From positions 1 to 64,000 of the forward strand of contig JAEUHM010000054.1 of assembly GCA_016795485.1 (NCBI GenBank): DNA of 64,000 nucleotides, read 5' to 3'. This DNA comes from Verrucomicrobiaceae bacterium (GTDB lineage Bacteria; Verrucomicrobiota; Verrucomicrobiia; Verrucomicrobiales; Verrucomicrobiaceae). Shown here one piece after another: positions 36,863 through 58,160 of the stretch. Position numbers and translations under genes: made by a program. The notes under the pieces are model-generated. The model was not told where the DNA came from. It made no database searches and was given only the letters and a program-made list of their open reading frames with translations. Numbering within the stretch: the first letter of the stretch is position 1; every line of letters starts with the position of its first letter.

Positions 36863-37939
36863 TTACAGTTTGCTCAGAGCGTCATCCAGAGCACCAATGA
36901 GTGCTGTGATGGATTCATCCGTCTCGTCTCCCATGTTGGAGATGCGGAAGGTCTTGCCCTTGAGCTTGCCGTAACCACCATCAATGATCAGCGAGTGGTC
37001 GCGCTTCAGATTGGCAATGAATGCCGCCACGTCGATGCCCTTGTTGTTCGCCACACAGGTGAGCGACTTGGAGCGGTAGCCCTCTGGTGCAAAGAACTCG
37101 AACCCGTTCCTCCGCACCCACTCATGCACCATGCCATTGAGACGTGCATGGCGCGCATAGCGATTGTCCAGACCCTCGGTCAGCATTTGATTCAACTGAT
37201 GCTTCAAGCCGTAGATCAGGGAGATGCACGGCGTGGACGGCGTCATGCTCTTCTCGCCATTGGCGCGGAACTCGATGAAGTCGAAGTAGTAGCCACGGTC
37301 ATCGATGGTCTCAGCACGCTTCATGGCTGCCGCAGAGGCGGCGAACAGAGCCAGACCTGGAGGCAGAGCGAACGCCTTCTGGGAACCGGTGAGCAGGACA
37401 TCAATGCCCAGCTCGTCGAAGTTCACGGGCACCGTGGTGAATCCAGACACCGAGTCCGTGATGAACATCACGTCTGGGTATTTCTTCTTCAGAGCAGCGA
37501 TCTCCGCGATAGGGCTGAGCACGCCCGTGGAGGTCTCGTTGTGAATGAAGGTCAGCGCATCGAACTCGCCCGTGGCCAGACGCTTGTCGATCTCATCAGC
37601 CATCACCGGCTGGCCCCACTCCACTTGATAGGCCTCAGCTTCCTTGCCGCAGCGCTTGGAGACGTCGAACCACTTGTCGGAAAACGCGCCATTGCAGCAG
37701 TTGAGCACCTTCTTTTTGACCAAGTTGCGGATGGACCCCTCCATGACGCCCCAGGCAGAGGACGTGCTGAGGAAAACTTGCTGCTTCGTGCCGAACAGGG
37801 CCTGAAGTTTTGGCTGGATCTCAGCATAGAGATCCACAAAGCCCTTACCGCGGTGTCCCATCATAGGGGCGCTCATAGCGGCATACGTGGCGGGCGAAAC
37901 TTCGACGGGGCCTGGAATGTAGAGTTTAACGTGGCTCAT
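36863..37939 (-). CDS. Class V aminotransferase (alanine/serine-glyoxylate or phosphoserine type)
   Basis: A 358-residue PLP enzyme. It opens KLYIPGPVEVSPATYAAMSA and MMGHRGKGF, typical of the serine-pyruvate/alanine-glyoxylate group. FITDSVSGFTTVPVNFDELG holds the Asp that pairs with the PLP ring, and the PLP Lys is in LLTGSQKAFALPPGL. Some members of this group act as phosphoserine aminotransferases, so a role in serine synthesis is possible. It is first in a run with oppB-oppC. The upstream 278 bp (37940-38217) contain a decayed permease fragment. Confidence 0.85.
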   Translation of the reverse strand: MSHVKLYIPGPVEVSPATYAAMSAPMMGHRGKGFVDLYAEIQPKLQALFGTKQQVFLSTSSAWGVMEGSIRNLVKKKVLNCCNGAFSDKWFDVSKRCGKEAEAYQVEWGQPVMADEIDKRLATGEFDALTFIHNETSTGVLSPIAEIAALKKKYPDVMFITDSVSGFTTVPVNFDELGIDVLLTGSQKAFALPPGLALFAASAAAMKRAETIDDRGYYFDFIEFRANGEKSMTPSTPCISLIYGLKHQLNQMLTEGLDNRYARHARLNGMVHEWVRRNGFEFFAPEGYRSKSLTCVANNKGIDVAAFIANLKRDHSLIIDGGYGKLKGKTFRISNMGDETDESITALIGALDDALSKL

Positions 37940-38011
37940 GGGTGATTTTACGGGCCAGCGACCCTAGGCGGCTCTTCCAAAAAGGGAAGCGCTAAAACAC
38001 ACGCCACCCTG

Positions 38012-38193
38012 CTCGTGCCGGAAGGCTTCCCCGGCAGTCTTGGAGGCCGCGTGCCTTGCTAGATAGATAGCACAGGCAAAGGCAGTGATGACCGACACGT
38101 AGAACGCCAGAATCAAAGCCCAGCGCATGATAACCACGGTGATGCCGACGACATGACTAATGGCGACTGGGAGGTCTGGTGCCCAACGAACTC
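38012..38193 (-). pseudogene. Relic of a MacB-type permease gene 3' end (copy 1)
   Basis: On the minus strand this translates as DLPVAISHVVGITVVIMRWA then LILAFYVSVITAFACAIYLA then RHAASKTAGEAFRHE. The end of the intact permease at 50381-51706 reads GIPVAVSHFAGVTTVIKPWA then PILAFSVSVITGIAFGIYPA then RRAASMNPVEALRHE. The match is unmistakable but the relic has no start, no upstream part and many substitutions. The motif GAAGCGCT lies just past it (37986-37993), as it does past the intact gene (50372-50379). Confidence 0.82.
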
Positions 38194-38217
38194 CAATCTT
38201 ACGCCTCAGTGTGGACG

Positions 38218-38568
38218 CTACTTGTGGAGCGATTTGCGATCATGGAGCTTGGCCTCAGCTTGCCCCAGTTGCTTACTGCGCTCCTTGATGGCTTCATCTG
38301 GTGGAAGAATCTTCACCTTTACCACCTTACCCTGGTCGTCACATAGATACACTCGCCCGAGTGGTGGCAGCCAAAAAGTTTCTCCGCTACTTCCCTGCAC
38401 TTCTTCCATGGGATGAGTTTGGTAGTCCCAATGACTGAATCTCGAAAACCTCTCTTTGGATGTGAGATGAGGACTGGCTGGCGGACTTGGATTCACTGAC
38501 ACCCAAGTAGCTCGCACGGCGAGATAAATTACGATGGTGCAAACTGCGAAAAGGATTGCCTTTTTCAT
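38218..38568 (-). CDS. Small protein with one N-terminal membrane segment, unknown
   Basis: A 116-residue protein starting MKKAILFAVCTIVIYLAVRA, a membrane anchor or uncleaved signal. The rest is hydrophilic, with a compact beta-rich stretch (FWLPPLGRVYLCDDQGKVVK) and a charged helical end. I recognise no family. Its stop lies 24 bp beyond the permease relic at 38012-38193. Genes here are all on the minus strand and look lower in GC than the flanking core genes. Confidence 0.55.
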   Translation of the reverse strand: MKKAILFAVCTIVIYLAVRATWVSVNPSPPASPHLTSKERFSRFSHWDYQTHPMEEVQGSSGETFWLPPLGRVYLCDDQGKVVKVKILPPDEAIKERSKQLGQAEAKLHDRKSLHK

Positions 38569-38659
38569 TATTGCGCGCTGCTGGTGTCCCAGACTCTTCT
38601 GGCAGATTCAAGTGTCTAACACTTTATTGCCGAAAGCCCATCCTTGGTCTCCAAAGACT

Positions 38660-39310
38660 TTAGTGCCTCAAGGCGGCAATTTGAGAAAATCGAATGGCAA
38701 CCTTGTACCTTGGCGCCCCTGCCCGTTGGTTGCCTAATGTGAGTTTAACCGAGCTTTCCTGGGGGGCCGCTCGTATCTGAAAGTCGCCTATGCTCAGGTG
38801 TTGATCGAGAATCCGTTGGTCAGACGAAATGATTTTCGTTCCATCCCGCAATACGATGCCCAGATGTGTTTTGCCGGCGATCGGCACGACCACCAAAGAA
38901 AGCTCTGGGTCCGACATGTCATCCATGCGCTGCAACACGATCGGCGGAACGGCAGGTGTGGCAGAATCACCATCTTCAATCTCGACCAATGGCGAAAGAG
39001 CCAGATGCGGCGAGCAAGGGATCCGAAGCGCACTCGCCCCAAACAGACTTATCACCTCGTCGAAATCGGGTATTCGCCTTTGCTGTGCGGCGTTGATCGC
39101 ATCGTCCATTGAGGCGAAACCTTTCTTCTTGGCACCATTACCTGAGCCCTGACTGAGTCGACCCGCAGACGGAACTGAAGGAGAATCTTTCTGGGCAACC
39201 TTAGGTTCATGAACCATGTCATCCTCCCAGAGCAGATGCGTCACCAACGCTCCGACACAGCCACCAAAAACTGCCGCAAGAAATGGTAATCCTAGCCTTC
39301 TCATGGGCAT
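38660..39310 (-). CDS. Membrane-anchored hypothetical protein
   Basis: A 216-residue protein. Residues about 8-26 (GLPFLAAVFGGCVGALVTHL) form one membrane helix. A Ser/Gly-rich linker follows, then a globular part with ASMDDAINAAQQRRIPDFDE and a beta-rich end (IGDFQIRAAPQESSVKLTLG). Two ATGs, at 39310 and 39304, are equally possible. No family recognised. Confidence 0.55.
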   Translation of the reverse strand: MPMRRLGLPFLAAVFGGCVGALVTHLLWEDDMVHEPKVAQKDSPSVPSAGRLSQGSGNGAKKKGFASMDDAINAAQQRRIPDFDEVISLFGASALRIPCSPHLALSPLVEIEDGDSATPAVPPIVLQRMDDMSDPELSLVVVPIAGKTHLGIVLRDGTKIISSDQRILDQHLSIGDFQIRAAPQESSVKLTLGNQRAGAPRYKVAIRFSQIAALRH

Positions 39311-39382
39311 AACTTCGTGGGTAACGACCTCGTTTCAATTGCCGGTTTCAAAATGGGAAGAAGCGCTAAAAATCCCCCTTTT

Positions 39383-39470
39383 CTAGCCCCGCCAGAGAGC
39401 TTCTAACGCGGTCCCAAAGGCCGCGTGCCTTGCTGGGTAGATGCCGAAGGCGATGCCGGTGATGACCGAC
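39383..39470 (-). pseudogene. Relic of a MacB-type permease gene 3' end (copy 2)
   Basis: Minus-strand translation is VSVITGIAFGIYPARHAA then FGTALEALWRG and a TAG stop, against VSVITGIAFGIYPARRAA then SMNPVEALRHE and stop in the intact gene. A run of 38 bases (39429-39466) is identical to 50427-50464 of the intact permease. GAAGCGCT follows the stop again (39360-39367). The first relic shares CCGCGTGCCTTGCT with this one and not with the intact gene, so the two relics are closer to each other. The rest of the gap 39311-39563 shows nothing else. Confidence 0.85.
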
Positions 39471-39563
39471 ACAACAAGCCTCAAGTGCTTGGCACCAATA
39501 CCTTTGTTCTAAGCTTTTGGCCGTCGGGAAGAGAAACGAGGTCCGATCAGTCTTGTAACGTCT

Positions 39564-39902
39564 TCACTTTTTCCCACGTCTAAGATCTTCCAACAAAGCT
39601 TTGTCATCTGTATCCGACCGTGTTTTTTGCGCGTCATACCTAGCCCTTAATTGTTCAGCATCCGGTCGTTTAACATACCGCTTAGTACCATCTTGAAACT
39701 CGATCAACGCTTCGTCCATCGCTGGCAGTTCGAGCACGCTACCGTCTGCCTGTTTTACCTTTGTTCGCACGAAGAGGTCGCCGTTCCCACGGGGTGAATC
39801 TCCGTATGGATCTAAACGTTTAGAAATGAAGTAGCTCGCCGGAACCACAAGCAACAACCATGTGCCCACGCCGATAGCAATCAAAGTCTTCAGTGTCTTC
39901 AT
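39564..39902 (-). CDS. Small membrane-anchored hypothetical protein
   Basis: A 112-residue protein with a single N-terminal helix (LIAIGVGTWLLLVVPASYFI), a basic patch, then a short beta domain (VRTKVKQADGSVLELPAMDE, IEFQDGTKRYVKRP) and a charged helix to the end (DDKALLEDLRRGKK). Not recognised. It stands alone with about 160 bp of featureless sequence before the next gene. Confidence 0.5.
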   Translation of the reverse strand: MKTLKTLIAIGVGTWLLLVVPASYFISKRLDPYGDSPRGNGDLFVRTKVKQADGSVLELPAMDEALIEFQDGTKRYVKRPDAEQLRARYDAQKTRSDTDDKALLEDLRRGKK

Positions 39903-40060
39903 TGGATAATTGGATTACGCAATCCTGACGATTTCAAAGCTCCGTTGCTTCAGTCAGGGAGTTTTGTTGCAGTTTTTTGATATGTTCTAAATGTCTTGTG
40001 GACCAACTGCCGATCAACTAGCTTTCTGCGGACGCCAATCAAGCATTTGGTCGCTTCGGG

Positions 40061-40465
40061 CTACTTCTCAGACGGGGAAGCGATCTGAGCTGAATACCTA
40101 ACGGACGATACGAAAGCGCAGGCCGAAACAAAAGCCGCCCAGGTCAAGAGGACAACGAGCGGGTAAATACTCGCTGGTAGCCTCGTGGGTTCTGGAAGGA
40201 GAACTCTCCACCACCTCGCAATCAACGCAGTAGCAACGAGCCCACAGATGCCGGTCGAAAAAACGGCCAGCCATCTCTGCGATAATGTAGCCGACGCGAT
40301 CAGAAGACCAACTGACCCAAGTGTGACAATGTCCACAGGGACACGGATGATACCCACCGACCGACCAACCATGACGTCCCAAAATGCACTGCTCAAACAA
40401 ACGAACGCTACCCCTCTAACAAAGACGGGGAATGAGATGCCGTAAGGTGGTGCTGTCGTGCTCAT
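40061..40465 (-). CDS. Small four-helix membrane protein, unknown
   Basis: A 134-residue protein with about four hydrophobic segments (FPVFVRGVAFVCLSSAFW; IVTLGSVGLLIASATL; WLAVFSTGICGLVATALIA; YPLVVLLTWAAFVSACAFVS). This layout suits an integral membrane protein, but I know no family for it. Start at the ATG at 40465. Confidence 0.55.
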   Translation of the reverse strand: MSTTAPPYGISFPVFVRGVAFVCLSSAFWDVMVGRSVGIIRVPVDIVTLGSVGLLIASATLSQRWLAVFSTGICGLVATALIARWWRVLLPEPTRLPASIYPLVVLLTWAAFVSACAFVSSVRYSAQIASPSEK

Positions 40466-40531
40466 CGCAGTGATAAAATTGTTCCGAATCCGTGGCCTAC
40501 TCGGCAGGCGTCCAAGTAGGTCCAGGGTAAT

Positions 40532-40657
40532 TCAACCCCGAAGTGTCAACTTCATGGTCGAACCAAATATCGGGGCCTCAGTTCCGTATTCACCCCCCCA
40601 AAGAGCGATATGGGTGCCTCGCAAAGCATTTAGCACCGCATCACCAGTATCTTTCAT
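40532..40657 (-). CDS. Very small ORF coupled to the upstream gene by ATGA overlap
   Basis: A 41-codon frame (MKDTGDAVLNALRGTHIALW ... FGSTMKLTLRG) whose ATG overlaps the stop of the 261-residue gene by 4 bp, as in coupled operon genes. No homology recognised. It could also be the remnant of a longer gene, since the sequence down to 40466 is otherwise empty. The strand and overlap are the only support. Confidence 0.35.
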   Translation of the reverse strand: MKDTGDAVLNALRGTHIALWGGEYGTEAPIFGSTMKLTLRG

Positions 40658-41439
40658 TTTTGCAGGTCAGCAAGAAACAGCATCTCGTCGCTAGTCATGC
40701 CGAACTTCTCGATAAATGGTTTCTCATTTCCCGTGCCATGCAACTCGCGCCAGCGAGCGACGACATCTCGCAGGTATCCAACGTCAATCGATTTACTTGT
40801 GGTGCGCTCTTTGCGCAGGGCCGCGAGATGGTCGATCCGAGCAGACTTGATCTCGGCATAGATTTGTTCCGCAAAAACAGGATTTCTACACGCTGAAATC
40901 AGATGCAGCTTAAGTTCCGCCTCGCTAGCCTTCAATAAATTAGATCGTTCGACTTCTATTTGAGAGTTTTTCGCAGAAATAGATGGGATGAATTCAGGGT
41001 TAGGTATTGTTTGAAGAGCATGATACTTCTTCCAATAATTCAATTGATTTAACTGATATTGTGAAATGATCACATTCGCCATCTCTGCCCTCAGTCCTAA
41101 TTTTGCTACGCTCCTATATATAGCCGGACCGACATGCTTGTCGACTTCCGATTGGAGCGCAGAGGCAATTGCCGTCTCATTAAGGGAACGCATTTTGATC
41201 TTCTCTAAAAGATGACGCGTTCGATGGGCATCATCCATGGCAGTATCTGTTGTAACAAACTGTAATTTCGGCTGCTGAGGATTCTCAACTTCGCTCGGAG
41301 GGCCACTTTTGTGGAACGGCGATAGGAGGACATTGGAACCGGTAACCTCAATTATTTGGGTAGACTGTTGATTGATGGCGAGAAAAAGCACAAGAAACAA
41401 GCTTGCTAAAATTCCAAAAAGGCGTGTCGCAGCTTTCAT
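40654..41439 (-). CDS. Exported or membrane-anchored helical protein, unknown
   Basis: A 261-residue protein starting at the ATG at 41439 with MKAATRLFGILASLFLVLFL, a signal or anchor. The remainder is mostly helical and rich in Leu, Ala, Glu and Gln (HLLEKIKMRSLNETAIASAL, SNLLKASEAELKLHLISACR). It begins 32 bp after the thrombospondin-repeat gene and likely shares its transcript. It is relatively AT-rich for this window. No family recognised. Confidence 0.6.
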   Translation of the reverse strand: MKAATRLFGILASLFLVLFLAINQQSTQIIEVTGSNVLLSPFHKSGPPSEVENPQQPKLQFVTTDTAMDDAHRTRHLLEKIKMRSLNETAIASALQSEVDKHVGPAIYRSVAKLGLRAEMANVIISQYQLNQLNYWKKYHALQTIPNPEFIPSISAKNSQIEVERSNLLKASEAELKLHLISACRNPVFAEQIYAEIKSARIDHLAALRKERTTSKSIDVGYLRDVVARWRELHGTGNEKPFIEKFGMTSDEMLFLADLQK

Positions 41440-41471
41440 AGCAGAGTTCAATATTATCAATCAGCCTGTGT

Positions 41472-43931
41472 CTATGGTGACCCGGCGCATGTGCAGCCAA
41501 AGACATCTCCTCCACATACCTCACAATGGTAAGGACAAGGGGCAGTGTGCGTACAATGGCCATCAAGACTCGGTTCAAAACCAAGGGACTCATGAGCATC
41601 GATTTTCTGCTCAAGCGCAGGAATCGCAAAGTTGTCGAGCCTCAACCACTCCAGTTGCAGAAACGCTTTTTCGTTTCTCAATCGGGTTAGTTCAGCGTAA
41701 TCAGGCGGTTCTTTTTCTTCCTCGCCTCGAATGGCTTTATCTAGTTCGGCTAGGTCACTCTCAATTGAATTACGGCGGTCGTACATCGCGCGCAAAAGTT
41801 CTAGATCTTGTCGTTGTTTATCAGCCTCTAACGCCCAAAGGAATTTTGCCCAGGCCCTATCATCAAAGCACGGTTGGCACGGCCCATTCGGGATAACACT
41901 AGGCAGGCGCGCCAAACATTTCTGACAATTGCTACCAATGCTTAAATCTTCGCCACCTGTTCCGCCCTCCTCAACTGTTTCACCACTCTCATTGGCCTCC
42001 TCTTCCTCAGTCTCAATCTCAGTGTCGTGCCCTTCCTCGGCAGCAAGGGGTGGCAATGGATTTTCCACCAAACTCTGAAAGTTCATCAGCGTGGTGGCAG
42101 ACACTTGGCTAGCGATGATTGCCGCAGCGATGGCTTGAGTGGTGGGCATACTGGCGGCGTTGCGATGGTTCGTGCTGAACACGACGATCTCATCCACGTT
42201 GCTGACCCCGTCGTTGTCCCAGTCGTTCTCCTCGTAGCTCATGTCCACATTGTGGTTGGTCATGACTTCATTCCAGTCGAACCCTAGCGCCTCGACCTGG
42301 GCTTGATTGACAAACACCTGAGGGTTCAATCCCATGTTATATTTTTCCAGGTTGGTCATGAAGTCGCCAACAATACTGCCTGCGGCATCAGTGGCGTCAC
42401 TGGGGTCTAATCCGTTAGCGATCTCCCACACATTGGGCATGCCGTCCCCATCGTCATCGAGAACGGTCTCATCGACTGGCAGCGGTTGATTGAGGGGATG
42501 ACCAGGGAAGTTGTTGAACACATCCAAATAGCTCACCGTGTCCTCTACTCCGTTGATCACTCGGAGGTTCTGCGCATCCGCCACCTGTGGATTCAGGTGT
42601 CCTGGATACTGCAACTCTACACTGTCACTCAAGCCATCCCCATCGGTGTCATTGTTGTTGTAAGGATCACCAGGAAACGGATCAGCCGGGTCATGGATGC
42701 CGTCACCGTCCTCGTCCACGAACACTCCTGCGTACTCGGTCGGCTGGAACTCAACCACATCGTTCTGAATCGTGAAGGACAGGGTAGACTCAGGCCAAGT
42801 AAACACTGAAGGCGCTTCTTCGTCAGGCGGATCGATCTCTACATTCTCCTCGCTGCCAGCCGAAGCGACCGAGGCAAGGTAGTCGCTGATGACGTTGGAC
42901 AAATCAATGTCATCGGGGATGCCATTACCGTCCGCATCCACCGCTGTGGCGGCGTGCCATTGCCCAGCCACATTTAACGTGGCGGACGGAACGCCCTCCG
43001 CTGAAAACTCGAAGGCCCCTCCCGGCCACCAAGCGCTGTTGTTTGAAGGGTCTGTGGGGTAAGGGTCTGCCACATCTGCAATGTCATCCGCATCCTGATC
43101 ACTGAACAGGCCGGAGTAGTCAGCCGGAGGGAACACGCTCATCTGGCCATCCACCCGAAAGCTGCCTCCAGGCCAACTGAAGTAGGTATTGTTCCATGCA
43201 TCACTTGGATACGGATCAATCTCATCTGGCAATGAATCCCCGTCCGTGTCTTCCACACTGTCGGCAAAGTAATGAACAGGGTCAAACGTGCTCCACTCCC
43301 CATTGATGAGCAAAGTGCCGCCCGCCCAGTGTTGGAGCGTGCCGTGGTTCGATGGGTTGTAGAACCAGTCTTCCAACACATCAGGAAGTCCGTTGGAGTT
43401 GGAGTCGGTATCCTCACCCGCATAGATGCCCGCACGGAAGGCATGGCGGATGTTATTGATCAAATAAGAGCCACCCTGAAACTCAAAGCTGTTGTTCGTA
43501 GGGTCTGTGGGATGGGTATCCACAACGTCTGGCAAACCATCCGAGTCACCATCTGGAATCGTGCCACCAACCGCTGCCAACCACTGACCACCGTATGAGT
43601 TCCAGACACCGTCCTCTGCAAAACTACCACCAGACCAGAAGGAAACGGCTCCACTGGCCACTGCATTCGTAAACTCTACCATCCACGCCGGATCATTGTT
43701 CTCATTCGGCGTATCATCCAAGGCCCCCGCTACGTCAGACTCTCCAGGTAGAGCCAACCAAACAGGCTGGCCAGCCTCATCCGGCACATAAATCGCTCTG
43801 GAAGTTTGAACCGGCATGACGGACATCATGGTTACGGCCACAATCTGTGCCCAAGAGGCAACGGCGCGGAAACGACGCCGACTTAGCAGCCCGCTAGAGG
43901 CTGAGAGGCTGAGAGGCTGAGAGGTATTCAT
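41472..43931 (-). CDS. Secreted thrombospondin-type-3 repeat protein with Cys-rich C-terminus
   Basis: An 819-residue exported protein. The ATG at 43931 is used, with a long basic leader and a hydrophobic run (ASWAQIVAVTMMSVMPVQTS). Calcium-binding type-3 motifs are frequent: DSDGLPDVVDTHPTDPTNNS, DTDGDSLPDEIDPYPSDAWN, DQDADDIADVADPYPTDPSN, DEDGDGIHDPADPFPGDPYN. They alternate with WPGGSF modules. After about residue 620 come an acidic linker, CQKC and CQPC pairs, a charged coiled-coil-like helix (SIESDLAELDKAIRGEEEKE) and a final Cys/His-rich tail (HCTHTAPCPYHC, CEVCGGDVFGCTC). The tail looks like a small metal-binding or disulphide knot. Role unknown; possibly a surface or matrix protein. 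Confidence 0.82.
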   Translation of the reverse strand: MNTSQPLSLSASSGLLSRRRFRAVASWAQIVAVTMMSVMPVQTSRAIYVPDEAGQPVWLALPGESDVAGALDDTPNENNDPAWMVEFTNAVASGAVSFWSGGSFAEDGVWNSYGGQWLAAVGGTIPDGDSDGLPDVVDTHPTDPTNNSFEFQGGSYLINNIRHAFRAGIYAGEDTDSNSNGLPDVLEDWFYNPSNHGTLQHWAGGTLLINGEWSTFDPVHYFADSVEDTDGDSLPDEIDPYPSDAWNNTYFSWPGGSFRVDGQMSVFPPADYSGLFSDQDADDIADVADPYPTDPSNNSAWWPGGAFEFSAEGVPSATLNVAGQWHAATAVDADGNGIPDDIDLSNVISDYLASVASAGSEENVEIDPPDEEAPSVFTWPESTLSFTIQNDVVEFQPTEYAGVFVDEDGDGIHDPADPFPGDPYNNNDTDGDGLSDSVELQYPGHLNPQVADAQNLRVINGVEDTVSYLDVFNNFPGHPLNQPLPVDETVLDDDGDGMPNVWEIANGLDPSDATDAAGSIVGDFMTNLEKYNMGLNPQVFVNQAQVEALGFDWNEVMTNHNVDMSYEENDWDNDGVSNVDEIVVFSTNHRNAASMPTTQAIAAAIIASQVSATTLMNFQSLVENPLPPLAAEEGHDTEIETEEEEANESGETVEEGGTGGEDLSIGSNCQKCLARLPSVIPNGPCQPCFDDRAWAKFLWALEADKQRQDLELLRAMYDRRNSIESDLAELDKAIRGEEEKEPPDYAELTRLRNEKAFLQLEWLRLDNFAIPALEQKIDAHESLGFEPSLDGHCTHTAPCPYHCEVCGGDVFGCTCAGSP

Positions 43932-44160
43932 ACGGGAAACGACTGGAAGGCGGTTAGGTAACAAATACGGGCTTTTGCCAATATCAGAGCGCGTTTTATC
44001 AAGTCCCTAGCCAAGTGAGAAGAAAAATCTTAGTGGCTCGTTAAAAAACATTCCACTCCAGCGGCTCACGACGCACGGCATCCAACAGGCTCCGCACGTG
44101 ACTTTCGGGGCTAAAATGAAGCCTCAGGGTGCCATTCCAGACCACTCGCGGCCAAAAACC

Positions 44161-44748
44161 ACTGGTCGGATGAGCCAAACCACCAGTCGGATGGGTCAAA
44201 CCACTGGTCGGACGGGCCAGACCACTGGTCGGACGGACCAAACCACTGGTCGGATGAGCCAAACCACTGGTCGGATGAGTCAAACCACTGGTCGGACGGG
44301 CCAGACCACTGGTCGGACGGACCAAACCACTGGTCGGATGGACCGCACGGCTAGTCGGATGGACCAAACGGCTAGTCGGATGGAGCAAACGGCTAGTCGG
44401 ATGGAGCAAACGGCTGGCCGGACGGACCAAACGGCTGGCCGGACGGACCAAACGGCTGGCCGGACGGACCAAACGGCTAGCCGGACGGACCAAACGGCTA
44501 GCCGGATGGAGCAAACGGCTGGCCGGACGGAGCAAACGGCTGGCCGGACGGACCAAACGGCTAGCCGGATGGAGCAAACGGCTGGCCGGATGGAGCAAAC
44601 GGCTGGCCGGATGGAGCAAACGGCTGGCCGGATGAACCAAACGGCTGGCCGGATGGAGCAAACGGCTGGCCGGATGGAGCAAACGGCTGGCCGGATGGAG
44701 CAAACGGCTGGCCGGATGGAGCAAACGGCTGGCCGGACGGAGCAAGCC
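44161..44748. repeat. 21-bp minisatellite, 28 units (locus 1)
   Basis: Twenty-eight exact-length units with the form GCTGGCCGGATGGAGCAAAC-G. Units 1-9 at the left end have ACTGGTC where units 13-28 have GCTGGCC or GCTAGCC, and units 10-12 are intermediate (GCTAGTC). Because 21 is a multiple of three, several frames on both strands stay open; I do not regard any as a gene. The gap 43932-44160 left of it shows nothing. Confidence 0.95.
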
Positions 44749-44817
44749 CCCAATCTTTCGCGGCCCGCCACCACCCCATCTGCGCGAAGCAGAGTAGTCC
44801 ATCAAGCCCCCTACCCT
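44742..44817. repeat. Conserved right flank of the minisatellite (locus 1, with internal deletion)
   Basis: Runs from GCAAGCCCCCAATCTTTC through CACCCCATCTGCGCGAAGC to AGTAGTCC and ATCAAGCCCCCTACCC. The same block follows the arrays at 46705 and 47748. Here about 30 bp carrying the CCTCTCG/CGAGAGG hairpin are missing between AGTAGTCC and ATCAAGC. Confidence 0.85.
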
Positions 44818-44890
44818 GCCGACCCCACTCAGCGCCCGGTTTTGGACCCAACCATGCGCCTAGGCCCTCCGCTCTGTCATGCTCAATGAG

Positions 44891-44960
44891 GCCCCAGAGC
44901 AACCACCGCAACCCCGAGCAACAAGATGGGCTTTGTTGTTGGTCTATTGGGGTTGCTTTG
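44891..44960. repeat. Hairpin repeat A at the 3' side of the pseudopilin-like gene
   Basis: GCAACCCC (44908-44915) pairs with GGGGTTGC (44949-44956), and inside it CAACAA (44919-44924) pairs with TTGTTG (44933-44938). Related sequences lie at 45721-45777 (B) and 47641-47700 (C). They share ACCACC-NN-AACCCCGA-N-CA-N-CA. Confidence 0.6.
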
Positions 44961-44985
44961 GTGAAGGTCTTTTGATTGGTGAGGC

Positions 44986-45507
44986 TCAACGAATGTCATC
45001 CTCCGTTCCCTCTTGGTTGATCTGATCGGGTCCATCTGACCACACAAAATAGTCACCCACAACCTTCCGATGCCCCGTGTCTACCCGCCCATCTCCATCG
45101 TGGTCAAAGTGGTAATGATAAACTCCACCCCAGCCATCACGCTGCTCCCCCGCTGGAATGTTCCAGAATACTATTCGATCAGAGTTCCGGCGATAAACGT
45201 CTGTCAATTGACCATTCAAGTCATGTCCAAGTGTGATGCTGAACTGATAGTCACTCTGTGGGCTGTTAAACGGCAAATGTCCGTAGTGGGATTTGAAGGC
45301 ATCGAGCGCTATTCTGATGGATGCGAGATCGGACCGCGTCCTTTGCAACTTCCAAGACTCAAACACGGCAAGGTTGGGCAGCCGATGAACAGGAAATCGT
45401 GCGTATTTCTCCGAATACCACATCCAACCTGAACAAGCTGCCGCAAGAAAAACCAATAGCACGACAGAGTAGCTAGTTTTCTTGGCACCCGATTTCATCT
45501 CACTCAC
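44986..45507 (-). CDS. Type II secretion pseudopilin (GspG)-like protein
   Basis: A 173-residue protein with an N-terminal membrane helix (YSVVLLVFLAAACSGWMWYS). ARFPVHRLPN and SDLASIRIALDAFKSHYGHL follow. The C-terminal part, GWGGVYHYHFDHDGDGRVDT then GDYFVWSDGPD, has the layout of the calcium-binding loop of GspG major pseudopilins (D.WG.PY ... Y.V.S.G.DG). The usual prepilin cleavage motif is not present, so it may be a GspG-like domain reused in a non-pilin protein. Other secretion genes are not nearby. It is an isolated gene in the accessory island. Confidence 0.6.
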   Translation of the reverse strand: MSEMKSGAKKTSYSVVLLVFLAAACSGWMWYSEKYARFPVHRLPNLAVFESWKLQRTRSDLASIRIALDAFKSHYGHLPFNSPQSDYQFSITLGHDLNGQLTDVYRRNSDRIVFWNIPAGEQRDGWGGVYHYHFDHDGDGRVDTGHRKVVGDYFVWSDGPDQINQEGTEDDIR

Positions 45508-45720
45508 GGCTTGTTGTTAGTTGCCCGAGAGTTTATGGCTACGGTCTGGTCAGTGCAAGCCGGTTGGAAAAGGCATGTTGTGCTGGTCGCCGCAGTGTCG
45601 CGCGCTGCTGCTAGAGTATGATGGGGACTCCCGATCTGACTTTCCAAGCAATCAGCACCACAAGCACAGAATATGCAATACCGGGCCAGTTTGAGCCTGA
45701 GCGTAAGTGCTGGCTCGATA

Positions 45721-45777
45721 CCACCACAACCCCGACCAGCAGTGCGGTCTCTACTGGTCAGCGATTCTGGGTGTTGG
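45721..45777. repeat. Hairpin repeat B overlapping the 3' end of the DUF7079-like gene
   Basis: GACCAG (45734-45739) and CTGGTC (45754-45759) form an inner stem, and CCACAACCC (45724-45732) with GGGTGTTGG (45769-45777) an imperfect outer stem. The gene at 45751-46158 stops inside it. The remaining gap 45508-45720 holds nothing recognised. Confidence 0.6.
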
Positions 45778-46158
45778 TTCATCGAAGGTTGGGAGTAGGG
45801 CGACGATGCGGTGCCAGTGGCGCTCAGTGGCGTATGTCATAAGTACCCGCCCAATGCGAACAAAGACCCAAAAGCGGAGCCAGAGGCTACGATGGTCGGC
45901 GCGCTTGCGAGCCTCGGCGTGTAACCACTGCTCGTCGAAGCCTTTCCACTCGCCTGCGACTGTGAGAAGATTGGGACTTACTACCGGAGCGACCTCGTAG
46001 AGATAGATGTCGCGCAACTCGGCAATGGTGTAACCCGAAGCGGCGGCTATGTGCGCGATTCGCTTCAAGTCTTCGTCCTCAAGTTCTGTGTCGAGCCAGA
46101 ACTGGGAAAATGCAGTCCAGACAGGCTTACGGCGCTCGAACTCTGCCTCGGTAATCAT
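45751..46158 (-). CDS. DUF7079-like small protein
   Basis: A 135-residue soluble protein. The ATG at 46158 (MITEAEFERRKPVWTAFSQF) is chosen; a longer frame to 46245 lacks coding character. Core text FWLDTELEDEDLKRIAHIAA, ELRDIYLYEVAPVVSPNLLT and GEWKGFDEQWL resembles the short DUF7079 proteins, which I recall only from hypothetical-protein annotations. A role as an immunity or accessory protein is possible but unproven. Confidence 0.65.
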   Translation of the reverse strand: MITEAEFERRKPVWTAFSQFWLDTELEDEDLKRIAHIAAASGYTIAELRDIYLYEVAPVVSPNLLTVAGEWKGFDEQWLHAEARKRADHRSLWLRFWVFVRIGRVLMTYATERHWHRIVALLPTFDEPTPRIADQ

Positions 46159-46281
46159 CGCTGGATTGCTTTCATCTCCGCGGACGGCAAGCAAACGCCG
46201 ACCCACTTGGTCGAGACGATGGCCGGAGGCTGAAAGTGCTGACACGACTCATAGACTTTGACCATGTCCCGGTGGTTTTCG

Positions 46282-46596
46282 CTATGTAGTGGCGTCGTCA
46301 TCCGATGGCTTGATCTTTTGTGGGCCTCGCGCGGTTGGCTCGTCAACGCGATCTGTCTCCACAAGCTTGATGGTGATCTCGTCCCCGACCTGAAAGTCGT
46401 GCCGGAACCAACTTAGATGCTCCGACGTCAGATGATCCAGGGCGGAGAGAGAAAAGCCAGCCTGCCAATCTTTATCTGGATTGGCTCCCAAGACAGAAGG
46501 TATGAAAACCCAGTTAGCTATTGCTGAGACTACCCCCTGGTGAAGCCCAGCAGTGGCGACGTGCTTCCCGTTAACTGTAACTTGATATGCGATCAT
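46282..46596 (-). CDS. Small hypothetical protein
   Basis: A 104-residue soluble protein starting at the ATG at 46596 with MIAYQVTVNGKHVATAGLHQ. A beta-rich first half is followed by DFQVGDEITIKLVETDRVDE and an acidic end. The opening strand pattern recurs in many short orphan proteins, but I cannot name a family. Minus strand, like all neighbours. Confidence 0.55.
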   Translation of the reverse strand: MIAYQVTVNGKHVATAGLHQGVVSAIANWVFIPSVLGANPDKDWQAGFSLSALDHLTSEHLSWFRHDFQVGDEITIKLVETDRVDEPTARGPQKIKPSDDDATT

Positions 46597-46704
46597 CTGA
46601 AGTAGCCTAGCGTCGATGTGTAGCACCGGTTACCGGGAGCGCCACATCATAACAGAGTTAAGGGTTGTAGTCCGGAGGCTCTTATTGAATAGGAGCGGCC
46701 AACC

Positions 46705-46746
46705 AGTGGTCGGATGGACCAAACGGCTGGCCGGATGGAGCAAGCC
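46705..46746. repeat. 21-bp minisatellite, 2 units (locus 2)
   Basis: Two units (AGTGGTCGGATGGACCAAAC-G and GCTGGCCGGATGGAGCAAG), one of each sequence class seen in locus 1, followed by the conserved right flank. This may be the ancestral or a contracted state. Confidence 0.85.
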
Positions 46747-46844
46747 CCCGATCTTTCTCGGCCCGCTACCACCCCATTTGCGCGAAGCAGAGTAGTCCTC
46801 TCGCTCCGCGAGAGGACCCTGTGGCCCATCAAGCCCCCTACCCA
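46741..46844. repeat. Conserved right flank of the minisatellite (locus 2)
   Basis: Full version of the flank. It includes a hairpin with 7-bp arms CCTCTCG (46797-46803) and CGAGAGG (46809-46815), then ACCCTGTGGCCCATCAAGCC. Nearly identical to locus 3. Confidence 0.85.
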
Positions 46845-46902
46845 TCGCCCACCAATGAAGACGAACCGCCTCAATGGCTAGCAGCGATATGGCCTTTATT
46901 GT

Positions 46903-47337
46903 TCAGAATGGCATCGAATGACCACCAGCCACCTTCACGACCATCTTCGTATCAGGACCGTTCACCTGGGTTAGAGGTGCTTTTACAGCAATTTTGAAAT
47001 GCTCCTTGGCACCACCAACGATGTCAGACCGAATATACTCGTTCTGCTCATCAATGAACACGCCAGAAGCGTCGAAGAACTCAACCTCAACGATGACGCT
47101 AGAGAACTTGTATTTACCGTTATTCGTGACTAGACCGACGATCTCAAGCTTATCCCCAGCTGTCCGTTTTTGAACCTCCGAGATAACCAGGTCTCGAGTG
47201 GCCTCACCCTTAAACCAAAAGAGCTTAATCAACGGCACGAAGCCAATAAGCATGATCGGCAGGACGATCCACAGCTGCTTCTTTCCCCAGGACATGTTCA
47301 AGTTCGACATCTCAGCTCCACAGTTTGAGCATTTCAT
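46903..47337 (-). CDS. Zinc-ribbon, membrane-anchored protein with FxLYD-like domain
   Basis: A 144-residue protein. MKCSNCGAEM is half of a zinc ribbon. One membrane helix follows (LWIVLPIMLIGFVPLIKLFW), then a beta-sandwich-like domain (LEIVGLVTNNGKYKFSSVIV, EVEFFDASGVFIDEQNEYIR, GGAKEHFKIAV) typical of FxLYD domains. Start at the ATG at 47337; another ATG at 47349 adds four residues. Such proteins are often of unknown function. It lies between minisatellite loci 2 and 3. Confidence 0.72.
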   Translation of the reverse strand: MKCSNCGAEMSNLNMSWGKKQLWIVLPIMLIGFVPLIKLFWFKGEATRDLVISEVQKRTAGDKLEIVGLVTNNGKYKFSSVIVEVEFFDASGVFIDEQNEYIRSDIVGGAKEHFKIAVKAPLTQVNGPDTKMVVKVAGGHSMPF

Positions 47338-47640
47338 CTTGGCGATCATAGATTGAGTAGATTGTTTGAAGGTGGGCCCTGTTTCTTGAGCGATTCAGTG
47401 AAAAGTTTAGAATGTCCGACGTCCCCCGAAAAGACTCCTGCGGACGGAACCACTGCACTCGCCTCCGTAGGTAAGGGGGTCATTGGAACTTCTCTCGTTT
47501 ATGGTGTGAGTGAGGGTTGATACCTCTCATCATGTGGGGAGGGCTTTGGAATGTCGAGCAAATCTTGCTGTGTGTCTCGGTCACTTTCGGCCACAGGGCG
47601 TTCAATCCAGGTCTGCCGAACCCAGCAACGGGCTCGCTGA

Positions 47641-47700
47641 AGCCCCAGAGCAACCACCTAAACCCCGAGCAGCACTGCGGCGTTTATTGGTCGGCCATGG
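47641..47700. repeat. Hairpin repeat C, left of minisatellite locus 3
   Basis: Shares AGCCCCAGAGCAACCACC and AACCCCGAGCA with repeat A and continues AGCACTGCGGCGTTTATTGG like repeat B. Base pairing of the inner stem is weaker here (GAGCAG against TTGGTC). The remainder of the 410-bp gap 47338-47747 shows no gene I can support. Confidence 0.55.
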
Positions 47701-47747
47701 TTTTTGGATGCACGAAGTGCCGGCTCGATGAAGCCCCGTAGCAAGCG

Positions 47748-48146
47748 CCTAGCCGGACGGGGCAAACGGCTGGCCGGATGGAGCAAACAGCTAGCCGGAC
47801 GGAGCAAACGGCTAGCCGGACGGAGCAAACGGCTAGCCGGACGGACCAAACGGCTGGCCGGATGGAGCAAACGGCTAGCCGGACGGACCAAACGGCTAGC
47901 CGGACGGAGTAAACGGCTAGCCGGACGGACCAAACGGCTGGCCGGACGGACCAAACGGCTGGTCGGATGGGCCAAACGGCTGGCCGGATGGAGCAAACGG
48001 CTGGCCGGATGGAGCAAACGGCTGGCCGGATGGAGCAAACGGCTAGCCGGATGGAGCAAACGGCTAGCCGGATGGAGCAAACGGCTAGCCGGATGGAGCA
48101 AACGGCTGGCCGGACGGAGCAAACGGCTGGCCGGATGGAGCAAGCC
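47748..48146. repeat. 21-bp minisatellite, 19 units (locus 3)
   Basis: Nineteen units of the same 21-bp repeat as locus 1, nearly all of the GCTAGCC/GCTGGCC class, with one GCTGGTC unit in the middle. Same orientation as loci 1 and 2. All frames without stops are by-products of the unit length. Confidence 0.95.
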
Positions 48147-48233
48147 CCCGATCTTTGGCGGCCCGCTACCACCCCATTTGCGCGAAGCAGAGTAGTCCTC
48201 TCGCTCCGCGAGAGGACCCTGTGGCTCATCAAG
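48141..48233. repeat. Conserved right flank of the minisatellite (locus 3)
   Basis: CAAGCCCCCGATCTTT, GGCCCGCTACCACCCCATTT, GCGCGAAGCAGAGTAGTCC, then the CCTCTCG/CGAGAGG hairpin and ACCCTGTGGCTCATCAAG, after which similarity to locus 2 ends. Confidence 0.85.
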
Positions 48234-48264
48234 GATTGGACTTGGAACCAATTATATGTCCTCA

Positions 48265-48513
48265 TCACCGCCGACGCCTTACCGCGCCTCTGTAAAGACG
48301 GCCAAGCACATACCCCAGCAGAGTGACAAATGTGACAATCAGGGACAGAGAAAAGGCTGCATAACGGACTGATGTCACCCAAATGATTGCAACCACGACG
48401 ATCAAAGTCATTACGATGATAGTGAAGGCTCGGTGACATGCCGCCGCAATTACAGCAGACGTGGCAAACGGCAACCCAACGACCACGATCGTTAACGTTA
48501 GCTCGCTCATCAT
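48265..48513 (-). CDS. Small integral membrane protein, unknown
   Basis: An 82-residue, strongly hydrophobic protein with three helices (LTIVVVGLPFATSAVIAA; FTIIVMTLIVVVAIIWVTS; AFSLSLIVTFVTLLGYVLG) and a basic tail (RLYRGAVRRRR), which would face the cytoplasm. Two adjacent ATGs at 48513 and 48510. No family known. Confidence 0.6.
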   Translation of the reverse strand: MMSELTLTIVVVGLPFATSAVIAAACHRAFTIIVMTLIVVVAIIWVTSVRYAAFSLSLIVTFVTLLGYVLGRLYRGAVRRRR

Positions 48514-48632
48514 TTAGAAACTGGCCCCGTAGATGAGGTAACGTAACGGACTAGGCGACGGCGAGGGGTGGACATTGCTGACACGGCACAACGCTCGTGA
48601 GCCGATCCCTGCGTCCATTGTGGTCAGCTTCC

Positions 48633-49091
48633 TCATGGCTGGCGGCCGGGTCTGTTTTTTCGCAGCCACAGGAGTATTGTGCTGAACGCGCTGAGGCCAG
48701 CTCCAAGGTAGAGCGGAAATGGAACAGAGCGGAGCTCTTTGAGTGCGTTAACATGCATCGAGTGACCAGTGCTGAGCCGCGACCAATAGTCATCTCCAAG
48801 ATCATCGGTGAGGTGCAAAACGTGAATAAGGATCGCAGCAGCCCCCAAAATCACAGGGGTCAGAACTGCAAACACCGTAACGTGCGGGGATGTCCTTCGG
48901 AGGATCAGGAATATTGCAACAAAGAAACTGATCATCATCAGGGCGTTGGCCCCTATATACAACGCCCCGACTGAGCAGAGTGACTCAAAGTAAGAATGGG
49001 GCTGCCAACTCGTCACAAACTGCCGCCGTGCCTCTCCGAGCCAATCAGGAGGTGCCCCATCTTGAGCCATGATTATTGGAAGTGCGCTCAT
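48633..49091 (-). CDS. Hypothetical membrane protein
   Basis: A 152-residue protein with three hydrophobic segments (ANALMMISFFVAIFLILRR; VTVFAVLTPVILGAAAILIH; YLGAGLSAFSTILLWL). Start at 49091 (MSALPIIMAQDGAP) lies 6 bp after the upstream stop; an ATG at 49070 is an alternative. Its closeness to the upstream gene suggests co-transcription. Unrecognised. Confidence 0.55.
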   Translation of the reverse strand: MSALPIIMAQDGAPPDWLGEARRQFVTSWQPHSYFESLCSVGALYIGANALMMISFFVAIFLILRRTSPHVTVFAVLTPVILGAAAILIHVLHLTDDLGDDYWSRLSTGHSMHVNALKELRSVPFPLYLGAGLSAFSTILLWLRKNRPGRQP

Positions 49092-49096
49092 CGTGG

Positions 49097-49669
49097 TTAG
49101 CCGAGACGTTTTGGCTGTGGTCCATCGAGCCAATACTCGATCAAATCTCGTTCGATGGCTGGGCGTGAAAACTCGGAATCCACGTCCTCGGATAGAAACT
49201 CAAGGAACCTGGCAACGGCCGACTTCTGAGTGGGCGATAGCAAAGAGAACTGCGAGCGCCGCAAATCATCAAGCTCGGAGAGTCTGATATCCAATCCCAT
49301 CCTATATTCGCCTCGGAGTTCGCAACAAATGAATGCTGGGAGATGAAATCGCATCCCTAGAGGATCGAAAAAGGAGAGGCTGCTGTGACAGGCGTTGAGG
49401 TGCTTTGAATCGATTCGCCTCCAATCCTCCTTCTCATCACGGGCGCGTTTCCGTTCTCTTTCTGCTTCAGACTCGTAGTTGTCGATCGCCTGCCCCTCGA
49501 ATAGCCCAACACCCGCCCCAAGTTTGACGCCCAGAAAAGCCTGCTCAATTTCGGCGGAAACTTCTTTAGCCTCCAACAATCGGTCTTCGGCTGGCTCGGA
49601 ATAAAGAGTCGACTCGTCGAAACCGCGCGCCCGGCGTTCTTCTACGTGGTTCTGTGTCAGGAAAAGCAT
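49097..49669 (-). CDS. DUF6714-like protein
   Basis: A 190-residue soluble protein. The middle reads LSFFDPLGMRFHLPAFICCE, then LLSPTQKSAVARFLEFLSED, then IEYWLDG. This order (F-x-P-x-G-x-R-F-x-L-P-A-F, then the S-x-x-Q-x-x-A-V-x-x-F-L helix) resembles the DUF6714 group, which often occurs among orphan or immunity-like genes. It is the first gene of the island next to the efflux operon. The function is unknown. Confidence 0.62.
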   Translation of the reverse strand: MLFLTQNHVEERRARGFDESTLYSEPAEDRLLEAKEVSAEIEQAFLGVKLGAGVGLFEGQAIDNYESEAERERKRARDEKEDWRRIDSKHLNACHSSLSFFDPLGMRFHLPAFICCELRGEYRMGLDIRLSELDDLRRSQFSLLSPTQKSAVARFLEFLSEDVDSEFSRPAIERDLIEYWLDGPQPKRLG

Positions 49670-49828
49670 TTCTTGGCGTCAAAGTGAACTCATCGAGGCA
49701 AACCTCGTTTTGTCAGCACCCTTGTATCCGACAAGACTGTTTGCGTTACGACGGGCTTTTTCGGTCATGCCGTTGTTCTACCCGAACTTCAGATGAAATG
49801 ACAAGCTCGAAGAGGAGAGTTCTTTGTT

Positions 49829-50345
49829 CTTGGCTTCATTGCGGCTCAGTGACTGCAAACTACTGCGAACTGACACCTGCTTGGTCCGTGCTTGAGCGGG
49901 ATGCGGACAGGAATGTCCGCGCTCCTTTTTGGCGAACTGTCGCAAACCACTGGGCTGGTGGCTTGAACGGAGCGCCACGTCTGCCGCCTCACAGAGACGG
50001 CCTACAGACTGAGGCGTGGGAGGTGAGACGATGTTCTTACCATGAATATTCTTACCGTTGCTGTTAGGAGACACGGAGGTTTGGTTCTTGGTGAGCTGAA
50101 TCTGTGGGAGATTTGATCGGCTGTGGCTCCGGCAAATTGGGGTGCTGCTCTTGGTTCTTGGCTTCATTGCCATTCAGCGACTGCAAACTACTGCGAACCA
50201 CTGTGCCGACGGCTTGAACGGAGCGCCACGTCTGCTGCCTCACAGAGACGGCCTACAGACTGAGGCGTGGGAGGTGAGGCGATGTTCTTGCCATCCATGT
50301 TCTTACCTTTGGTGTCAGGAGGCACGGAGACGTGGTTCTTTGTGC
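49829..50345. repeat. Imperfect tandem duplication downstream of the permease gene
   Basis: Two related units. Each begins CTTGGCTTCATTGC and CAAACTACTGCGAAC, then has GGCTTGAACGGAGCGCCACG, the X-repeat core CTCACAGAGACGGCCTACAG, and ACTGAGGCGTGGGAGGTGAG-CGATGTTCTT. The first unit carries an extra about 75 bp with a perfect hairpin GCGGACA/TGTCCGC (49913-49930). No gene is visible in 49670-50380. Confidence 0.75.
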
Positions 50346-50380
50346 CTTGTTCCTGGTGCTTGGCTTCGGATGAAGCGCTG

Positions 50381-51706
50381 TTACTCGTGGCGGAGGGCTT
50401 CCACGGGGTTCATGGAGGCGGCGCGTCTTGCTGGGTAGATGCCGAAGGCGATGCCGGTGATGACGGAGACGGAGAAGGCCAAGATGGGGGCCCAGGGCTT
50501 GATGACGGTGGTGACGCCGGCAAAATGGCTGACGGCCACGGGGATGCCCAGGCCGAGGACGACTCCCAGGATGCCGCCTACTCCAGAGAGCAGCACGGTC
50601 TCGATCAAGAACTGCAACACGATGTCTACCTGCCGCGCTCCTAGTGCCCTGCGGATGCCAATTTCCCTGGTCCGCTCGGTGACGGATGCCAGCATGATGT
50701 TCATGATGCCGATGCCACCCACGATGAGGGAGATGGCGGCGATGGAGCCGAGGACGATGGAGAAGATTTGCTTGGTGCGCTCTGCCTGCCGCAACAACTC
50801 CACGGGCACCACCATGCGCCAGTCGTTTTTCTTGTGGTTGCGCTCCAGGATGTGCCGCACGGCTTCGGCGCGGGTCTCGACTTCCTTGATGTCGCCCACC
50901 CGGATGACGGCTTCGTGAAACTCCACTTTTTCTGCCTCAAAGGAGCCGGAGCGGTAGCGGAAGAACGTCTCGCCATACTGGTCCATGAGCGTGGAGAACG
51001 GGATGTAGAGCTGGGCGCTGGAGTCATTGCTGGCGGAAGACTTGCCGGTATCCCCTGGTGAGAAGGAGGACTCGTCCTCAATGACGCCGATGACTTTGTA
51101 ATAGTGGCGCTGAACCCGGACGGCCTTGCCGGTGGGGGTATTGAGCGGGAAGAGCTTGCTGGCGAGTGCCTCATTGAGCACGCAGACGGCGGCCCGGTCC
51201 TCAATCTCCAGGTCGGTGAAGAACCGGCCCTGTAGGAGCGTGCGGTTGCGCATTTGAGGATAAATGGGCAGCGCGCCGATGATCTGGCTGTCCTCTTTCT
51301 TCTGCCCCGCCCAGGCCACGTCGGCAATCTGGCGGCTGGGGACCACGATGCTGATGCCGGGGACGGTTTGCTTGATCTGCTGGATGTCCCTGGTGGTGAT
51401 GCCGTATTCCAAGATCATGCTGCGGGTCTCGTTGGTGGCCCCGGAGGAGTCTGAGGGTTTCACGGACTGCAAAATGATGTTCTGGGAGCCGAGTTTGCGA
51501 ATCTGCTCCTGAGCCTCGTGGGACGCTCCTTCACCGATGGCCAACATGGCTACCACGGACGCTACCCCGAAGACCACGCCGAGCGCGGTAAGGAAGGACC
51601 GCAGTCGGTGGAGCCAAATGGACTTCAATCCCATGGCCATACTGCGCCCCAGATGCTGGGGGGACAGGATCAGACGCAAGATGGGATGATGAGAGAGAAA
51701 GGGCAT
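50381..51706 (-). CDS. MacB-type ABC transporter permease (FtsX fold)
   Basis: A 441-residue membrane protein. One N-terminal helix (LHRLRSFLTALGVVFGVASV) is followed by a large periplasmic domain of about 240 residues. Three C-terminal helices come with the FtsX signature (IMLASVTERTREIGIRRALG; GVGGILGVVLGLGIPVAVSH; ILAFSVSVITGIAFGIYPAR). The family uses ATP-driven mechanotransmission to expel substrates through a TolC-like channel. It is the last of four minus-strand genes (TolC, adaptor, ATPase, permease), 15 bp after the ATPase. Two decayed copies of its 3' end lie about 11-12 kb away in the island. Start at 51706 is possible; an ATG at about 51640 (MAMGLKSIWL) would also fit. Confidence 0.92.
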   Translation of the reverse strand: MPFLSHHPILRLILSPQHLGRSMAMGLKSIWLHRLRSFLTALGVVFGVASVVAMLAIGEGASHEAQEQIRKLGSQNIILQSVKPSDSSGATNETRSMILEYGITTRDIQQIKQTVPGISIVVPSRQIADVAWAGQKKEDSQIIGALPIYPQMRNRTLLQGRFFTDLEIEDRAAVCVLNEALASKLFPLNTPTGKAVRVQRHYYKVIGVIEDESSFSPGDTGKSSASNDSSAQLYIPFSTLMDQYGETFFRYRSGSFEAEKVEFHEAVIRVGDIKEVETRAEAVRHILERNHKKNDWRMVVPVELLRQAERTKQIFSIVLGSIAAISLIVGGIGIMNIMLASVTERTREIGIRRALGARQVDIVLQFLIETVLLSGVGGILGVVLGLGIPVAVSHFAGVTTVIKPWAPILAFSVSVITGIAFGIYPARRAASMNPVEALRHE

Positions 51707-57159: not shown

Positions 57160-58101
57160 CTAAGCCTTCTCGGCAAGTGCCAGCACCGTCTGGAAATGCG
57201 GGCTATTCTGTTCGCGGTGGACGACCTTGGTCTCCACGTTCTTGAAGCCAGCTGACTCGATCATTTCCTGCAAATCCACCTCGGAAAAGCCGAGCCAAAC
57301 ATCAGCGTAAAGCTCACGAGCCTTCTCGAAGTTGTGCTTGAGCAAATCAAGCACCACCAAGCGGCCTCCAGGCTTAACGATCCGATAAGCGGCCTTCAGT
57401 GCACGCTCAGGCTGCCCAGCATGGTGCAATGCTTGGCTAAACAGCGCTAAATCGACCGTGCTGTCATCAATGGGCGGCTCTTCCAGATCACCCAGCCGAA
57501 ACTCCAAGTTCGTAAAGCCATGCTGCCGAGCCAAATCCGCTCCGTAGGCCACCATGTTGGGCGCATTATCGACTGCGATGACTTTCTCAGCGTGCTGGGC
57601 CAGCAATTGAGAAAGGGTTCCCTCCCCTGCCCCAAGGTCGGCGATCACCATCGGCGGCAGCAGGTGAATGAGCGTCTCAGCCAGTCCCTTCCATGAGCGT
57701 CCAGGGATGTAATGACGACCAAACTTGCCCGCCAGAGCGTCAAAATAGGCCTGAGCAACGTTGGCGCGCTTCCTTCGCACCACTTTGAGCGCCGTCTGAT
57801 CACGCTTCCGCTCAGGCATCTCGGCTCCGGCCAGTTCTACGACGTTGAGAAACTCCTCTCGGGCATCAGCAGCTCGCTTTTCGACCGGCATGAGGCTGTA
57901 GAGCTTGTTCTTCCCAGACCGGCGATCCATCACCAAGCCCCCAGACTTCAATTTGGCCAACTGAGCCGAGATATTGGACTGCGGCATGGCGAGAATCTCC
58001 TGCAGTTCTGCCACGCTTAGCTCTTCCTCACGAAGCAACAGAACCATCCGCACCCGGGTCGGGTCGGCCATGAGACTGAGTGATTTCAAGATTGACGCCA
58101 C
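57160..58101 (-). CDS. ArsR-family regulator fused to a SAM-dependent methyltransferase domain
   Basis: A 313-residue fusion. Residues 1-90 are an ArsR winged helix ([40 protein letters not shown]). Residues about 130-313 are a class I methyltransferase ([50 protein letters not shown]). The GTG at 58101 keeps the first helix intact. It is divergent from metK over a 59-bp gap. This suggests autoregulation and control of metK and ahcY in response to SAM or S-adenosylhomocysteine, as described for the ArsR-type SahR regulator in Proteobacteria. That role is inferred here. Confidence 0.85.
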
Positions 58102-58160
58102 GGCTTGTCCAGGACATACATATCAACGTATCATCATCTATCAATATTAATCTAACCACC
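58102..58160. promoter_or_regulatory. Divergent control region with three TATCA half-sites
   Basis: The short AT-rich gap between the regulator and metK has TATCA at 58121, 58129 and 58139, i.e. steps of 8 and 10 bp, within CATACATATCAACGTATCA and CATCTATCAATATTAATC. Repeated half-sites in such a gap are what a dimeric ArsR-type regulator would bind. No riboswitch-like structure fits in 59 bp. Confidence 0.5.

Follow-up and report, generated by a model that had tools for sequence, protein, structure and literature searches.

Our analysis supports the view that the tract on the 3' side of a MacB/FtsX-type permease gene in a Verrucomicrobiaceae genome (6.5 Mb in 61 contigs, about 99.9% complete) is accessory DNA, and on the far side of this island lie two decayed copies of the 3' end of the permease gene, relic 1 and relic 2. 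Local duplication and decay of the permease end within a recombination-prone accessory tract is the best fit to the observations, and we give this explanation about an even chance of being correct. The island is a patchwork of a decayed integron attC site, a truncated relative of proteins that adjoin RHS-repeat genes and several local direct duplications, and a single mobile element need not be invoked to explain it. The features are collected in Table 1, with positions in the window, that is the whole stretch of 64,000 nucleotides that was analysed.

Table 1: Features of the permease locus, the island and its left border.
Feature	Position	Strand	Remarks
Aminotransferase gene	36863-37939	minus	left border of the island; upstream sequence common in relatives is missing
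Tail of relic 1 (approximate)	37970-38011	minus	includes AGCGCTTC; runs to the aminotransferase gene start
Relic 1	38012-38197	minus	matches the 62 terminal permease codons; identity 67.7% nt, 56% aa; no stop codon
116-aa ORF	38218-38568	minus	between the relics; stops just before relic 1
216-aa ORF	38660-39310	minus	between the relics; without relatives in 59 family genomes
Tail of relic 2 (approximate)	39345-39394	minus	includes AGCGCTTC; homologous to the tail of relic 1
Relic 2	39395-39472	minus	26 codons from the 3' end of the permease; 81% nt identity; 38-bp identical run
830-aa TSP3-repeat secreted protein	41472-43964	minus	relatives of 900-1700 aa in sister genera; truncated here
21-bp tandem repeat array	44162-44745	.	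about 27 copies
DUF7079 gene	45751-46245	minus	
Second 21-bp tandem repeat array	47740-48143	.	about 19 copies; shared flanking pieces
82-aa ORF	48265-48513	minus	after the attC
Decayed integron attC	48536-48624	minus	between two small genes; 37.3 bits, E 2.8e-7
166-aa gene	48633-49133	minus	directly before the attC; former cassette; weak DUF4386 match
190-aa gene	49097-49669	minus	DUF6714
Direct duplication (152 bp, 87.5%)	49932-50344	.	with dispersed REP-like repeat; adjoins the permease on its 3' side
Permease gene (MacB/FtsX-type)	50381-51706	minus	441 aa, intact; closes a tolC-macA-ABC-permease operon

Two relics of the permease 3' end

The preliminary description had placed two decayed permease 3' ends here, both on the strand of the gene, and tblastn and alignment found them at these places. 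With the last 99 permease residues as query, relic 1 was recovered at 38197-38012 (62 aa, 56% identity, E 1e-14) and relic 2 at 39472-39395 (26 aa, 77% identity, E 3e-6). The relics are about 1.4 kb apart, the permease follows about 12 kb beyond them, and relic 1 sits inside a 91-codon frame free of stops (38239-37964). When the whole genome was searched by BLAST with the relics, DNA copies of the permease 3' end above chance appeared at these three places only, all of one locus. The relics are therefore a real observation beyond chance.

The run of 38 identical bases that had been reported for relic 2 and the permease was found by alignment and is improbable if the 15 differences of relic 2 were spread evenly (P = 0.00016). 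It is confined to these two copies: relic 1 differs within the run, and relic 2 matches relic 1 on both sides of it. In its sequence relic 2 thereby looks like a mosaic, as expected from recombination between copies. The relics had also been thought to resemble each other more than the intact gene. Over the common 78 bp this was not the case, with an identity of 81% between permease and relic 2, of 73% between permease and relic 1 and of 73% between the two relics, and only AGGCACGCGGCC together with a tail that extends about 45 bp beyond the stop is found in both relics and not in the gene (p<0.001 vs shuffles). The 3' flank of the permease has little in common with these tails beyond AGCGCTTC. 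This motif does follow all three ends, as previously described, but at a different offset (4 bases after the last sense codon in the permease, about 18 in the relics), and its count in the window is near chance (6 vs 3.3 expected, with 11 of 100 shuffles reaching 6). It is thus a weak marker of the permease boundary, although it belongs to the tail that both relics have.

In a tree with 29 family orthologs the relics and the permease of the same genome form one group (support 93/95) in which the relics are sisters (91/85); these support values are rough and the relics short. Since the relics group with their own permease and have a tail in common that is absent from the gene, we take them as sister copies and not as two independently displaced ends. 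A paralogous permease, brought up earlier as a possible donor, therefore finds no support among these orthologs; judged by the tree, the relics derive from the permease gene of the lineage itself, and probably one of them is a copy of the other. Relic 1 has fewer amino-acid changes than expected under neutrality, with P 0.003 for uniform rates and 0.012-0.024 for base-specific rates in simulations that are themselves rough, which points weakly to past coding constraint.

Gene content and repeats of the island

That the tract is accessory, as the preliminary description had it, is borne out by the gene content of relatives, since in other genomes no close relatives of the island proteins occur near the permease or aminotransferase genes, by the lower GC content (about 53% vs about 58% in the flanks) and by the integron attC. 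Nearly all genes between the relics and the permease had been described as small, unrecognised and on one strand; the genes here indeed all lie on the minus strand and most are small and unrecognised, with the exception of the 830-aa protein. Besides the families given in Table 1 an FxLYD-like protein was recognised among the island proteins. A tRNA attachment site was rejected, as the window is without a tRNA.

The attC was detected with a covariance model built from four attC of the genome's own integron (the array beside IntI on contig C16), and it separates the 166-aa gene and the 82-aa gene exactly, from which we infer that one or more of the island genes came in as a cassette of an integron. 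A strict attC motif search of the window gave no match because the sole clear attC is decayed, and a second candidate (46197-46279) scored at chance level (E 3.4 and 8.5). With one clear attC, the idea of the whole island as a cassette array is unsupported. The chromosomal integron on contig C16 (L248, 64-5423) has small ORFs with 89-bp attC sites between them, and its integron integrase (TIGR02249, 382 bits) is in divergent orientation to these ORFs. A lone attC-like site (29.7 bits) was also seen elsewhere in the genome (L250, 7920-8011).

Relatives of the 830-aa protein occur in genera g8 and g10, and two of them sit directly before RHS-repeat genes. In two genomes of genus g10 (G009 and G016; L227 and L231) TSP3-type proteins are followed by RHS-repeat genes and small genes in polymorphic-toxin-like loci. 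Outside the island, two large secreted-protein genes in the window share a 1.3-kb stretch (20322-21620 and 25008-26306, 82%), and the first of them also contains 156-bp tandem repeats (22472-24560). For the 112-aa and 116-aa ORFs upstream of the relics, descent from one duplicated gene as part of a tandem unit was rejected, their likeness not being significant.

The tract is rich in direct duplications. Apart from the 152-bp pair adjoining the permease (49942-50093/50193-50344) they comprise 46707-46833/48107-48233 (95%), 44709-44800/46707-46798 (92%) and 49821-49870/50149-50198 (90%). The two 21-bp arrays are nearly restricted to the island tract within the genome, and the flanks common to both include a CTCTCGC/GCGAGAG hairpin, with a third partial copy at 46698-46833. 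The permease-adjoining duplication was also considered as a pair of attC sites, which we rejected because the copies contain dispersed REP-like repeats. The REP-like repeat GCCACGYCTGCCGCCTCACAGAGACGGCCTACA is present at 33440, 34498, 49974 and 50225 of the window and on many other contigs, and forms an array with a spacing of about 133 bp on contig C49.

At the left border, the tail of relic 1 replaces, down to about 40 bp from the start codon, the sequence that is common upstream of the aminotransferase gene in other genera. The sequence TTGCAC...TACTAT, present upstream of the gene in genus g10 and in similar form in g8, is missing at 37940-38000 of the window, and the aminotransferase may now be expressed from another promoter. 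An empty site with the permease 3' end directly before the aminotransferase gene, which the preliminary description had expected in related genomes, was looked for and not found in the relatives compared (family genomes outside the source genus), because there the two genes are nowhere adjacent and lie on different contigs or megabases apart, with differing flanks. Likewise, none of 64 further permease loci had a relic closer than 10 kb. In genus g10 the aminotransferase and a probable metK (58080-59360 in the window) are neighbours in the same direction; in the window they flank the permease operon in opposite directions, indicating a past rearrangement. In the two g10 genomes (G009 and G016) integron integrases precede the aminotransferase gene at a distance of about 4.5 to 8 kb on its upstream side (L257 4669-5688 and L258 7350-7844).

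Origin of the relics

Local duplication would have begun with recombination in the direct-repeat-rich tract, by which the permease end and a short downstream tail would have been placed on the far side. This far-side copy would then have been duplicated to give relics 1 and 2, both of which decayed, and the tract between the relics and the permease would have grown step by step: at least one integron cassette would have been captured, genes of a TSP3-repeat-protein locus gained or lost, and non-coding repeats duplicated in direct orientation. The sister relationship of the relics with their common tail, the restriction of all three copies to this locus, the direct duplications, the attC, the mosaic character of relic 2 and the absence of a recombinase among the island ORFs tested all favour this course of events. 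The weak coding constraint on relic 1 counts against it, as it is unexpected in a freely decaying truncated copy, and so do orphan permease 3' ends in two other genomes, for which no 5' pieces were found.

The preliminary description had explained the relics by repeated insertion at the permease 3' end. Elements carrying this end would have integrated there serially, in the manner of prophage e14 at icd, with each insertion restoring the gene and leaving its former end at the far border, and both elements and integrases would since have been lost. We consider this somewhat unlikely, although geometry and strand fit, relic 1 with 186 bp is sized like icd' (163 bp, PMC6379469), and the weak constraint on relic 1 would agree with it. 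The common tail is not predicted by serial displacement unless the elements carried it, the relics are sisters, and their left edges are unequal with 62 vs 26 recognisable codons; the insertions are thus not borne out at the locus itself. There is also no empty site in relatives and no integrase in the island: Pfam, PHROGs and NCBIfam found no recombinase among the island ORFs tested, and none of ten integrases of the genome matches the window, so that the earlier remark that no integrase is visible holds. The nearest tyrosine recombinase (PF00589) on the contig of the window, C4, lies at 364 kb, about 314 kb away.

The permease gene itself gives a further hint of insertion, as its last 62 codons resemble other genera unusually strongly at synonymous sites, with 85% of codons the same as in genus g4 vs 60% elsewhere in the gene. 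However, replacement of this end by foreign DNA was rejected, the trees being compatible with the normal grouping (AU p 0.27). A structured RNA in the permease end was rejected as well, on the basis of fold z-scores (about 0 for the permease end and relic 2, -1.4 for relic 1) and of an Rfam search that gave no match in the permease end. The relic motif and the permease end were not found in viral contigs, and a literature search returned no paper on macB as an integration site.

Orphan permease ends in other genomes

The orphan search covered two permease regions and the aminotransferase as one control gene. With the last 62 permease residues as query against 68 family genomes, it detected orphan 3' ends in the genomes G031 and G080. 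The former (contig C41, 3510-3616, 107 bp) is 92% identical to G031's own permease and lies beside sppA; its recognisable homology stops at about the stop codon, and the native downstream neighbour of the permease was not found behind it. The latter (contig C359, 949-1066, 82%) lies about 15 bp after an hsp70 gene and is then interrupted by an insert. This insert (L235, about 1067-1200, about 135 bp) is MITE-like: its ends, ACTGC...GCAGT, are inverted, and it may have a target duplication, TAT. Equal-length searches of the 68 genomes for the permease 5' region (codons 21-82) and for the aminotransferase 3' end yielded no convincing orphans, one aminotransferase copy at a contig edge being probably an assembly artefact. 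Orphan 3' ends in the absence of 5' pieces suggest something particular about the permease 3' end, for which they are the strongest evidence we have, and this speaks for serial integration; three events vs none are weak statistics, however, and both orphans have chromosomal genes (sppA, hsp70) as neighbours, without a visible mobile element around them. A wider reading, that a mobile-element family of the Verrucomicrobiaceae uses the permease 3' end as an attachment module, scattering orphan ends and exchanging the end of the working gene between lineages, appears unlikely to us.

The G031 orphan bears on another explanation too. In a Phragmitibacter genome sppA is located about 8 kb upstream of the permease (4 kb before the operon) in the same relative orientation as at the orphan, which therefore may mark a former permease site. 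By analogy, our relics could be the last remains of a complete second permease gene or operon that was deleted from its 5' side, with relic 2 as a local duplicate. In many relatives the permease is split from its ABC and MacA partners and has differing neighbours, and it must therefore have moved often, so that a left-behind locus is conceivable; the stop-free frame and the weak coding constraint of relic 1 fit as well. Nevertheless we regard decay in place as quite improbable. No other piece of a second permease, MacA, TolC or ABC gene was found near the relics, about 20 bp lie between the end of the intact 116-aa ORF and relic 1, the permease 5' region is matched nowhere else in the genome, and the sppA link comes from one genome.

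Which of these explanations is right matters beyond this locus. If insertion at the 3' end were true, the permease gene would be a new integration site, and the elements could be traced by the orphan ends. If local duplication is true, the locus is an ordinary but well-documented example of the growth of an accessory tract by small duplications and cassette capture, and a caution that displaced-looking gene ends need no integrase.

Comparison with known systems

Mobile elements of the phylum Verrucomicrobiota seem to be little described, and our literature search for genomic islands and integrases of Verrucomicrobia and Prosthecobacter found no paper. From other bacteria, the closest geometry is that of prophage e14, whose insertion at the Escherichia coli icd 3' end leaves a displaced pseudogene icd' of 163 bp (PMC6379469). 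As there, a 3'-terminal gene copy of similar length lies beyond accessory DNA on the same strand, but the locus described here has two sister relics with unequal left edges, neither an integrase nor prophage genes, and no empty site in relatives.

The island also recalls sedentary chromosomal integrons and CALINs (clusters of attC sites lacking an integron integrase), as its small unrecognised genes lie on one strand, its attC is like those of the genome's own integron and the integrase is encoded elsewhere in the genome. In contrast to these it has one clear, decayed attC among about a dozen genes and no integrase in cis, and is thus below the threshold of two attC that IntegronFinder 2.0 sets for a CALIN (PMC9024848). 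A third comparison is with the RHS/TSP3-repeat secreted-protein loci of the Verrucomicrobiaceae with their trailing small genes. Although the island has no RHS-repeat gene among the proteins scanned and its 830-aa protein is shorter, this protein is homologous to the proteins that precede RHS genes in genus g10.
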